Source: Nitrosopumilus sp. LS_AOA (lineage in GTDB: Archaea; Thermoproteota; Nitrososphaeria; Nitrososphaerales; Nitrosopumilaceae). From it: a DNA stretch of 38,671 bases. The notes beneath the pieces were generated by a model. The model was given only the letters and a program-made list of their open reading frames with translations. It did not search any database and had not been told where the DNA came from. The position numbers and the translations under genes were made by a program. This document shows, piece after piece, positions 35,824 through 38,377 of this stretch. Location: positions 1 to 38,671 of the forward strand of contig LFLC01000056.1 of the NCBI GenBank assembly GCA_001543015.1. Reading direction: 5' to 3'. Position 1 is the stretch's first letter. Every line of letters begins with the position of its first letter.

Positions 35824-37044
35824 TTGATCTTGGCTAGAACATCATTACAATGCAGAGAATGTAAAAAAAAATATGATACTGCTTTCAAGTATGTTTGCGA
35901 TGAGTGTTTTGGACCACTAGATGTAAAGTATGATTTTCCAACAATTACAAAAGACACATTTTCTAATCGTGAGCATACCTATTGGAGATATTTTGAATTA
36001 CTACCAATAGAGAATAAATCAAACATTGTAAGTATTGGCGCTGGCATGACTCCTCTAATTAAAGCAGATTCACTTGGAAAAAAATTAGGACTAAACAATC
36101 TTTACATCAAAAATGATTCTGTAAATCCAACATTTTCATTCAAAGACAGACCAGCTGGTGTTGCAATATCAAAAGCTAAAGAATTTGGATTAAAATCTGT
36201 TGGTTGTGCATCTACTGGTAATTTAGCATCAGCTACTGCAGCACATGCAGCAAAAGCTGGATTGCCATGTCATGTATTTGCACCAAGTAATATTGAGATG
36301 GCAAAAATTACACAAGCATTGGCATATGGTGCAAATTATATCGCAGTAGATGGAACATATGATGATGCAAATAGAATAGCTGCACAAATTGGTGATAGTA
36401 AAGGAATTGGTATAGTAAATATTAACATGCGCTCACATTATGTAGAAGGTTCTAAAACATTTTCATTTGAAGTTGCAGAACAATTAGACTGGCAAGTACC
36501 TGATCAATTAATAGTTCCAGTAGGAAGTGGTGCAATGCTTAATGCAATATGTAAAGGTTTTGAAGAACTACAAGAAGTATCATTACTTGATGATGTTTCA
36601 AACATGCACATGATTGCAGCACAACCACATGGATGTGCACCTATAGTTGATGCATTTAAGAAAAATTCTAAAGAGGTAATTCCAGTTGAAAATCCTGACA
36701 CTGTTGCAAAGAGTCTTGCAATTGGTGATCCTGGTGATGGCAGATATGTACTAAAACGACTAGCACAATACAACGGATTTGCAGAAGAATGTAACAATAA
36801 AGAAATACTAGATGCAATTATTTTATTAGCAAAGACTGAAGGAATTTTTACAGAACCAGCAGGTGGAGTTTCTATTTCTGTATTACAAAAAATGGTTGAA
36901 CAAGGAAAGATTGATAAAAATGATAGAGTCGTATGTTATGTTACTGGAAATGGTCTTAAAGCAACTGAATCTATCATGGAAGTATTACAAAAACCCAAAG
37001 TGATGAAAGCAGATATTGCAGAAATTTCGGCGGTAGTAAATTAA
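35824..37044 (+). CDS. thrC: Threonine synthase
   Basis: PLP enzyme that turns O-phosphohomoserine into threonine, 406 residues, TTG start at 35824 (a second TTG at 35830 is possible). An N-terminal zinc ribbon holds Cys10, Cys13, Cys25 and Cys28 (CRECKKKY and CDECFGPLDV). The PLP lysine is in NPTFSFKDRPAGVA (about 99-112), with the CASTGNLASATAAHAA block (about 128-143) and SGAMLNAICKGF. The C-terminal YVTGNGLKATE is typical. It ends one base before the MoaD-E1 gene, so the pair is a tight operon. Its product shares the homoserine branch with methionine synthesis. Confidence 0.95.
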   Translation: MILARTSLQCRECKKKYDTAFKYVCDECFGPLDVKYDFPTITKDTFSNREHTYWRYFELLPIENKSNIVSIGAGMTPLIKADSLGKKLGLNNLYIKNDSVNPTFSFKDRPAGVAISKAKEFGLKSVGCASTGNLASATAAHAAKAGLPCHVFAPSNIEMAKITQALAYGANYIAVDGTYDDANRIAAQIGDSKGIGIVNINMRSHYVEGSKTFSFEVAEQLDWQVPDQLIVPVGSGAMLNAICKGFEELQEVSLLDDVSNMHMIAAQPHGCAPIVDAFKKNSKEVIPVENPDTVAKSLAIGDPGDGRYVLKRLAQYNGFAEECNNKEILDAIILLAKTEGIFTEPAGGVSISVLQKMVEQGKIDKNDRVVCYVTGNGLKATESIMEVLQKPKVMKADIAEISAVVN

Positions 37045-37045
37045 A

Positions 37046-38377
37046 ATGGCAAATATTACATTTACAATTCCATCAGTTCTTAATTCAGGAGGTGGCGAAA
37101 AGAAAATAGAAATTTTATCTAATTCATTACAAGATACATTTGCAAAAGTCTCTGAAATAATGGGTGATGACTTTAAGCGTAGAGTGCTAGAATCTGATGG
37201 AACTCCTCGCTCTTTGATTAATATTTACATTAATGGAAAAAATGCAAAATTCTCAAATGGTATGGAAGCTGTTCTAAAGGATGGTGATGATGTATACATT
37301 TTACCTGCAGTAGCTGGAGGCTCTAAAGAATTATCAAAAAAAGACTTGGATAAATTCTCTCGTCAAATCATGCTTGAGGAGATTGGTTATAACGGTCAAT
37401 TAAAATTAAAAAATTCTAAAGTTTGTGTTGTTGGTACTGGTGGATTAGGTCATCCAATCATTTCAAGACTTACTGCAATGGGAATTGGAACTTTGAGAAT
37501 TGTTGATAGAGATGTAATTGAATTATCTAATTTACATAGACAAATAATGTTTGATGAAGATGATGTTGGTCAAGTAAAAGTAGAGGTTGCTGCAAAGAAA
37601 TTAAAAAAACTAAATCCTGATTGTAACATTGAAGCATTAGCAGTATCTGTAAATGATTATACAGCACTTGAAGTAATTGAGGGATGTGATGTTGTAATTG
37701 ATGCACTTGATAGTGTTAATGCTAGATATGCATTAAACAAAGCATGTGTTAAATTAAATATTCCATTTGTAACAGGTGCTGCAGTTGGAGTTTCAGGACA
37801 AGTCTTTACTGTTTTACCAAAAGAATCTGCATGTTACTTTTGCATGTTTCCTGATTTAGATGAGGATACAATGCCAACATGTAGTATTGAAGGTGTACAC
37901 CCATCAATACTTTCTATAGTTGGAGGAATTGAAGTTGCAGAAGCTGTAAAAATAATTATTGGAAAAAAACCAAGTCTTTCAGAAAAGATTTTACATATTG
38001 ATTTGGAGAATCTTGATTTTAATAATACTAGAACATTTAGAGCTGATGAATGTCCAATTTGTGGTACAGGAAAACTTGAAATTGTTAAAAAAGAAGAATT
38101 AATTTTAGAAGAATTGTGTGGAAGAAATAGGGGAAAGAGAACTTTTTCAATTACTCCAACTGATACATTTGATCTTGATGTGAATGTTGTAACTAGTATT
38201 GCAAAAGAAAAAGGATTTCTTGTAGATAATCAAGGAGACTTGGGATTGTCTATGAGAACTGATGAATTGTCTGTAAGTTTTATGAAGCGGGGTTCAGCTG
38301 TTGTAGTTGGACCAAAAGATGAGACTGAGGCAATTTCATTATACAAAACTCTCTTAGGACAAGAGATTAAAATATAA
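37046..38377 (+). CDS. MoaD/ThiS-like ubiquitin-fold domain fused to E1-like ThiF/MoeB enzyme
   Basis: 443 residues in three parts. Residues 1-92 are a beta-grasp domain of the MoaD type, with internal GG at 91-92 (ILPAVAGG). After only three residues, an E1-like adenylyltransferase follows (about 96-345): FSRQIMLEEIGYNGQLKL, P-loop-like GTGGLG (130-135), DRDVIELSNLHRQ, zinc ligands C263-x2-C266 and C336-x2-C339, and candidate catalytic Cys279 in MPTCS. The C-terminus (about 354-443, from LCGRN) is an accessory domain known from other ThiF-type proteins. The E1 would adenylate a carrier C-terminus; here the fused GG is not free, so release needs cleavage, or the domain acts in cis. It follows thrC by one base, suggesting sulfur transfer in methionine or cysteine synthesis. 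Alternatives are molybdopterin, thiamine or tRNA thiolation. Confidence 0.9.
   Translation: MANITFTIPSVLNSGGGEKKIEILSNSLQDTFAKVSEIMGDDFKRRVLESDGTPRSLINIYINGKNAKFSNGMEAVLKDGDDVYILPAVAGGSKELSKKDLDKFSRQIMLEEIGYNGQLKLKNSKVCVVGTGGLGHPIISRLTAMGIGTLRIVDRDVIELSNLHRQIMFDEDDVGQVKVEVAAKKLKKLNPDCNIEALAVSVNDYTALEVIEGCDVVIDALDSVNARYALNKACVKLNIPFVTGAAVGVSGQVFTVLPKESACYFCMFPDLDEDTMPTCSIEGVHPSILSIVGGIEVAEAVKIIIGKKPSLSEKILHIDLENLDFNNTRTFRADECPICGTGKLEIVKKEELILEELCGRNRGKRTFSITPTDTFDLDVNVVTSIAKEKGFLVDNQGDLGLSMRTDELSVSFMKRGSAVVVGPKDETEAISLYKTLLGQEIKI

Follow-up and report, generated by a model that had tools for sequence, protein, structure and literature searches.

The two genes that close an archaeal contig, a threonine synthase paralogue followed by a fusion of a sulfur-carrier domain with an E1-like activator, probably constitute a thiocarboxylate-dependent homocysteine synthase built around an enzyme of the threonine-synthase family, a reading to which we assign a probability of roughly 0.6. 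The window, that is, the whole stretch of 38,671 nucleotides that was analysed, is one complete contig (C9) from a genome of 1.93 Mb. Its end falls just past the fusion gene, an open reading frame with an ATG start and orthologues of up to 88% identity (Table 1). This gene and the upstream thrC1 are presumably co-transcribed. The last bases of the contig (38660-38671) read AGATCGGAAGAG, the start of an Illumina adapter, and are, to judge from those letters, an untrimmed assembly artefact.

Table 1. Features of the thrC1-fusion locus, in window coordinates
Feature	Position	Strand	Evidence
Carrier-E1 fusion gene, 443 aa (CysO-like beta-grasp + E1/ThiF + C-terminal domain)	37046..38377	+	ORF and translation; Pfam ThiS and ThiF; orthologues
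CysO/MoaD-like sulfur carrier domain, residues 1-92	37046..37321	+	phmmer to CysO 3dwg and 4n6e; ThiS 2.9e-7
Internal Gly91-Gly92, expected cleavage and thiocarboxylation site	37316..37321	+	Invariant in 52/52 distinct fusions; split relatives stop there
Linker, residues 93-103	37322..37354	+	Length (10-48 residues) and sequence vary across orthologues
E1/ThiF adenylyltransferase domain, residues 104-337	37355..38056	+	PF00899; invariant Arg165, Asp219, Asp222, Cys263/266/336/339
Cys279	37880..37882	+	Aligned with Cys of NCRTAG in E. coli ThiF (1zfn/1zud); invariant in 52/52
C-terminal domain, residues 346-443	38081..38374	+	No Pfam match; conserved in orthologues; PRK12475 profile covers 102-438
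ThrC1, divergent threonine-synthase paralogue (fold type II PLP enzyme), proposed sulfur-accepting synthase	35824..37044	+	PALP match; changed invariant positions; separate clade
One-base gap, thrC1 stop to fusion ATG	37045..37045	.	Sequence

The carrier-E1 fusion and its internal Gly-Gly

The fusion had been predicted to contain a MoaD-like domain ending in Gly-Gly at residues 91-92 and, three residues further on, an E1/ThiF domain, with a single base separating the gene from thrC. All of this was borne out: residues 1-92 of the translation end in LPAVAGG and are followed by SKELSKKDLDKFSRQ, similarity to MoeB and ThiF begins at residue 95-96, and thrC ends at 37044. The first domain, a beta-grasp of about 90 residues with the CysO/ThiS similarity of thiocarboxylate sulfur carriers, is matched by phmmer from end to end, from residue 3 or 4 to residue 92, to CysO of M. 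tuberculosis (3dwg) and to a ThiS/MoaD protein from an actinobacterium (4n6e), and the Pfam ThiS match (PF02597), which is above the cut-off, spans residues 49-92. The ThiF match has an E-value of 9.1e-75 in one search and of 1.3e-75 in another, and alignment of 52 orthologues and of ThiF locates the ATP site, Arg finger, catalytic Asp, Zn-binding CxxC pairs and sulfur-transfer Cys; Cys279, by its alignment with the NCRTAG motif of E. coli ThiF, we take to be the last of these. The best E1 profile matches include UbaA, which activates SAMP. The C-terminal domain is the E1-associated 'TBP-like' domain described in PMC2948915. A second E1-like protein (252 aa) is encoded elsewhere in the genome, on a 5.5-kb contig (L002, G000:C15); its neighbours are a weak match to Prok-E2_E and a protein with DUF6527, a gene group that resembles bacterial ubiquitin-like operons and is possibly mobile or foreign.

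Two roles had been offered for the fused domain, a carrier that must be cut or a guide for a separate carrier, and the evidence supports the first. In the fused gene the Gly-Gly is internal. Leu86-Val89 (LPAV), Gly91 and Gly92 are invariant in 52 of 52 distinct fused orthologues, and the loss of Gly-Gly in homologues that had been named as refuting the idea did not occur; the spacing, unlike the pair itself, is not conserved, the linker from the Gly-Gly to the E1 core ranging from 10 to 48 residues. Split relatives, one in the same family (L061) and three in family f8 (L062, L064, L065), have carriers with a free C-terminus exactly at the Gly-Gly, the E1 frame of the f8 loci beginning across or directly after the carrier stop, while a tail of several residues follows the Gly-Gly in L058, L059 and the unfused carrier of G047 (L133). 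It is because the Gly-Gly is invariant despite the varying linker, and because split relatives end at it or carry a short tail, that sequence comparison supports a real carrier in need of cleavage. In genus g17 (L057-L059) the linker past the Gly-Gly is hypervariable, one genome having 48 residues with a long serine/asparagine run (L057), whereas in two others the carrier frame stops and the E1 has a frame of its own; a single genus thus alternates between fusion and fission. An unfused CysO-like carrier from Thermoleophilia (L120:4707-4985) has genes for E1-rhodanese, cysteine synthase and JAMM as its neighbours; it ends in GGAPA and, as its sequence reads, is another whose tail must be trimmed.

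A fused carrier with an internal Gly-Gly followed by Ser is likewise found in MoaX, the MoaD-MoaE fusion of M. tuberculosis, where cleavage past the second Gly (Gly82-Ser83) is required for function (PMC4326299); the partner there is the acceptor subunit MoaE, not an activating E1, and the pathway is another. That the fused domain is instead a vestige or guide, never a carrier, is very improbable: the chemistry, in which an internal Gly-Gly needs a cut before adenylation, would suit such a role, as would the different function proposed by Iyer et al. (PMC1779556) for bacterial Ubl-ThiF fusions beside a stand-alone ThiS, but LPAV and Gly-Gly have stayed fixed while the linker drifts, split relatives are free carriers, and there is no stand-alone ThiS-family carrier in the genome to guide. 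A genome-wide PF02597 search found no stand-alone ThiS-family protein, the matches being the fusion and one domain fused to Cgi121. This other ThiS-family domain (L003:1486-2256, G000:C21) is joined to KEOPS Cgi121 and has an internal HGG, a type of fusion known since PMC2948915.

The suggested check was for a JAMM protease and a MetY-type enzyme beside the fusion gene; the protease is present in the genome but at other loci, and by the PF01053 search (E<=1e-20) MetY/MetB is absent from the genome altogether. Both Prok-JAB proteins (n=2; L005, 140 aa, 4.5e-19, and L006) are encoded away from the fusion. The Mec-like L005 carries the JAMM motif HSHPNSEAYPSSTD and has homologues in 90 of the 91 fusion genomes; this type was not recovered in G004, G026 and G029, where carriers already end in Gly-Gly. 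A JAMM protease may be what cuts the fusion. As a dedicated operon partner it was rejected, its conserved neighbour being a cupredoxin gene and the protease persisting after the fusion is lost. Across the order the Mec-like gene repeatedly adjoins one for a cupredoxin-like membrane protein, near a protoheme farnesyltransferase-like gene (L087, L151-L154, L156).

The neighbouring threonine synthase paralogue

The upstream gene had been called threonine synthase, a name that stands as annotation by similarity (PALP family by Pfam; the NCBIfam threonine synthase model PRK08197 scores 317 bits, its cut-off being 303) but not as an identity. The genome has five PALP-family genes: ThrC1, a second ThrC (L079), threonine ammonia-lyase, TrpB and a divergent CysK-like protein. 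There are 109 positions at which four solved threonine synthases do not vary and ThrC1 sequences are uniform (>90%). ThrC1 has a different residue at 36 of them, and at 25 of these 36 L079 retains the threonine-synthase residue. The active-site motifs NPTGSFKDRGM, STGNTSAS, NSVNPxRxEGQKT and PVGNAGN read NPTFSFKDRPA, STGNLASA, VNINMRSHYVEGSKT and PVGSGAM in ThrC1, so that the conserved active-site motifs of threonine synthase are altered while the PLP lysine is kept. In a tree of 32 sequences ThrC1 forms its own clade (support 100/99), which includes G047 and the actinobacterium Nonomuraea, and L079 groups with the solved threonine synthases (94/92). By these comparisons ThrC1 is a divergent paralogue, not an ordinary threonine synthase, and L079 is the canonical ThrC.

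ThrC1 lies directly 5' of the carrier gene at every locus examined, including the split loci of G047 and Nonomuraea. In Nonomuraea the gene immediately after that of ThrC1 encodes a carrier with AVAGG at its end, and a Mec-CysO-CysM locus is present separately; the two are therefore distinct systems, and the occurrence of the ThrC1-carrier pair without fusion in both genomes makes it wider than the fusion. From its sequence and setting, ThrC1 is likely the sulfur-accepting enzyme, a role for the neighbour that the original prediction overlooked. Its broader link to thiocarboxylate-dependent sulfur amino-acid synthesis is supported by the invariant Gly-Gly, by split homologues that end there and by the Mec-like JAMM, and also by the G020 operon described below.

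A plain threonine synthase next to a carrier-E1 serving molybdopterin, in the manner of MoaD-MoeB, would accord with the NCBIfam naming of ThrC1 and with the MoaD-MoeB label given to the fusion in a 2024 survey (PMC11237513). Such an arrangement hardly fits the presence of a second ThrC with canonical motifs, or the genomes that lack ThrC1 and retain a lower-scoring ThrC-family match consistent with that second ThrC; the carrier, moreover, is CysO-like, and no moa genes were recognised among the ORFs of the window. We regard it as highly unlikely.

Distribution and the source of homocysteine

Of 150 genomes in the class, 91 encode the fusion in one ORF, so the arrangement is not one of chance. 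ThrC1 was found in 101 of the 150, PF01053 (MetY, cystathionine gamma-synthase and kin) in 32, and both in only one (G026), an exclusion count that is inflated by shared ancestry and partly one of phylogeny across the class. Of 49 genomes without ThrC1, 31 have PF01053 and 18 have neither, these being 14 Nitrosopumilaceae and four MAGs at <=85% completeness; outside family f1, PF01053 is present in 31 of 35 genomes lacking ThrC1, the other four being <=85% complete. Few contrasts are both clear and independent (in families f4, f8 and f12). They are f4, with PF01053 and without ThrC1, inside an otherwise ThrC1-bearing order; G020 against its f8 relatives; and G047.

The genome analysed here has a MetH-type domain, no MetE that could be found and no PF01053 member at E<=1e-20, and the archaeal HcyBio family is absent from all 150 genomes. 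Homocysteine is thus used, yet without a known forming enzyme among those searched for (PF01053, HcyBio). Mutual exclusion of ThrC1 and PF01053, absence of HcyBio and presence of MetH together point to homocysteine as the product. MetE was set aside as a marker, since it does not discriminate in a genome that uses MetH without it.

The most telling contrast among the genomes is G020, which lacks ThrC1. Here a fusion of carrier, E1 and rhodanese with an internal VAGG shares an operon (L130:6774-9921) with a JAMM protease and with an enzyme of the cystathionine-gamma-synthase family, which scores 497 bits for PRK08574 (cut-off 477). In a ThrC1-less relative, a carrier-E1 device of similar build is thus linked with an enzyme family that forms homocysteine. 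Apart from the carrier-E1-rhodanese fusion, the gene set and layout are much like those of Wolinella.

The 14 Nitrosopumilaceae genomes without the fusion, mostly of 1.2-1.5 Mb (G031, G068, G071, G077, G083, G089, G097, G104, G118, G125, G129, G147, G148, G149), have lost ThrC1 in every case and also lack PF01053; they keep MetH and retain ThrC-family matches at the lower score expected of ThrC2. They are predicted to need external methionine or homocysteine. Co-loss of thrC1 and the fusion was counted as weak evidence of function, because the genes are adjacent and a single deletion takes both.

These 14 genomes also bear on the view that the fusion works as a general-purpose Ubl/E1, in tRNA thiolation or in protein conjugation of the SAMP/Urm1 kind, with thrC an incidental neighbour. 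Archaeal Ubl systems perform both tasks (PMC2948915), the E1 of the fusion may serve the Cgi121-fused ThiS-family domain, and the UbaA match is in keeping with this; essential tRNA thiolation would hardly be dispensable in 14 near-complete genomes, however, and the thrC1-carrier pair is conserved across the class and in an actinobacterium, with both genes lost jointly. Such a general role is improbable.

The main rival concerns the product. With the same machinery, ThrC1 could make cysteine, the carrier thiocarboxylate carrying out beta-replacement on O-phosphoserine as in Mycobacterium CysM with CysO. CysO and a CysO-like protein are the nearest sequence matches of the carrier domain, and cysteate synthase, a ThrC homologue in Methanosarcina, provides a precedent for beta-replacement with a sulfur nucleophile. 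L081, the sole CysK-like protein that the genome encodes, is divergent, scoring under all cysteine synthase cut-offs. On the other side, the distribution of ThrC1 complements that of PF01053, a family in which the biosynthetic enzymes yield homocysteine or cystathionine, MetH is kept with no other homocysteine source found while L081 is a candidate cysteine synthase, and ThrC1 derives from a family that binds O-phosphohomoserine. Cysteine as the product is therefore unlikely, though less so than the other alternatives. L081:1057-2595 (G000:C62) encodes 513 aa, about 140 of them C-terminal residues without assignment, and is the only other candidate cysteine synthase found.

The homocysteine-synthase reading has its own difficulties: the NCBIfam label of ThrC1 is threonine synthase; JAMM lies outside the operon and is retained in fusion-less genomes, so it is no dedicated partner; G026 has ThrC1 and PF01053 together; and the 14 genomes with neither system would have to import methionine or homocysteine.

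A proposed pathway and its relatives

In the proposed pathway a protease, most likely the Mec-like JAMM, would cut past Gly92 to release a carrier ending in Gly-Gly, whose terminal Gly would be adenylated by the E1 domain and converted, via Cys279, to a thiocarboxylate. ThrC1 would then use this thiocarboxylate, in place of water, as the nucleophile on O-phosphohomoserine, attacking the PLP-bound vinylglycine intermediate derived from it, to give carrier-bound homocysteine; hydrolysis, possibly by the same JAMM, would free homocysteine for conversion to methionine by MetH or MetE. What the sequences themselves show is the domain anatomy, the conserved Gly-Gly, the paralogy of ThrC1, its constant linkage to the carrier and the lack of the known homocysteine-forming enzymes searched for; from these the cleavage, the thiocarboxylate, the substrate and the product are deduced.

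Two known systems resemble this scheme. In Wolinella succinogenes the carrier HcyS, whose tail must be removed, the E1 HcyF and a JAMM protease feed the PLP enzyme MetY for homocysteine. The scheme proposed here likewise has carrier, E1 and JAMM supply a PLP enzyme for homocysteine, but with a ThrC paralogue (fold type II) rather than MetY (fold type I), the genome having no PF01053 enzyme; carrier and E1 are one protein, and JAMM, though in the genome, is not adjacent to the fusion. With CysO/CysM/Mec of Mycobacterium the locus shares a carrier ending in AVAGG, an adjoining fold type II PLP gene and a Mec-like JAMM in the genome; it differs in its fused E1, in the proposed product, homocysteine, and in its partner, which is of the ThrC family and not of CysM type. 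The CysM reaction, the analogue, is a beta-replacement, and gamma-replacement to homocysteine is not known for any threonine-synthase-fold enzyme.

The fusion itself is not new. That beta-grasp/E1 fusions had been noted in surveys is correct: Makarova and Koonin (2010; PMC2948915) describe a 'Ubl-E1-TBP' fusion of the same protein family in Thaumarchaeota, and the 2024 survey (PMC11237513), in which 61 of the 98 assemblies from Thaumarchaeota had MoaD-MoeB fusions, lists them for Rokubacteria and NC10 as well. When contigs of 84,980 species of bacteria and archaea were searched for bacterial fusions with a GC-rich DNA pattern, 3 loci were found, L120 among them, and 0 fusions; the Rokubacteria and NC10 fusions were not seen. 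Within the open-licence literature covered, neither the threonine-synthase neighbour nor a sulfur amino-acid role is mentioned in the accessible parts of PMC2948915 or PMC11237513, and novelty appears to lie in function, not in the fusion. The odds are about even that a threonine-synthase-fold enzyme here makes homocysteine directly from O-phosphohomoserine and a protein thiocarboxylate, which would be a new activity, the main route in ammonia-oxidising archaea and, in an older split form, common to actinobacteria.

With the present reading, a fusion on record since 2010 becomes open to direct test. In sea and soil, few cells are as abundant as ammonia-oxidising archaea. If the reading is true, it would fill their homocysteine gap, methionine synthase being present with none of the forming enzymes searched for, correct a widespread 'threonine synthase' annotation, add a reaction type to the PLP enzymes, and predict which reduced lineages depend on outside methionine or homocysteine.
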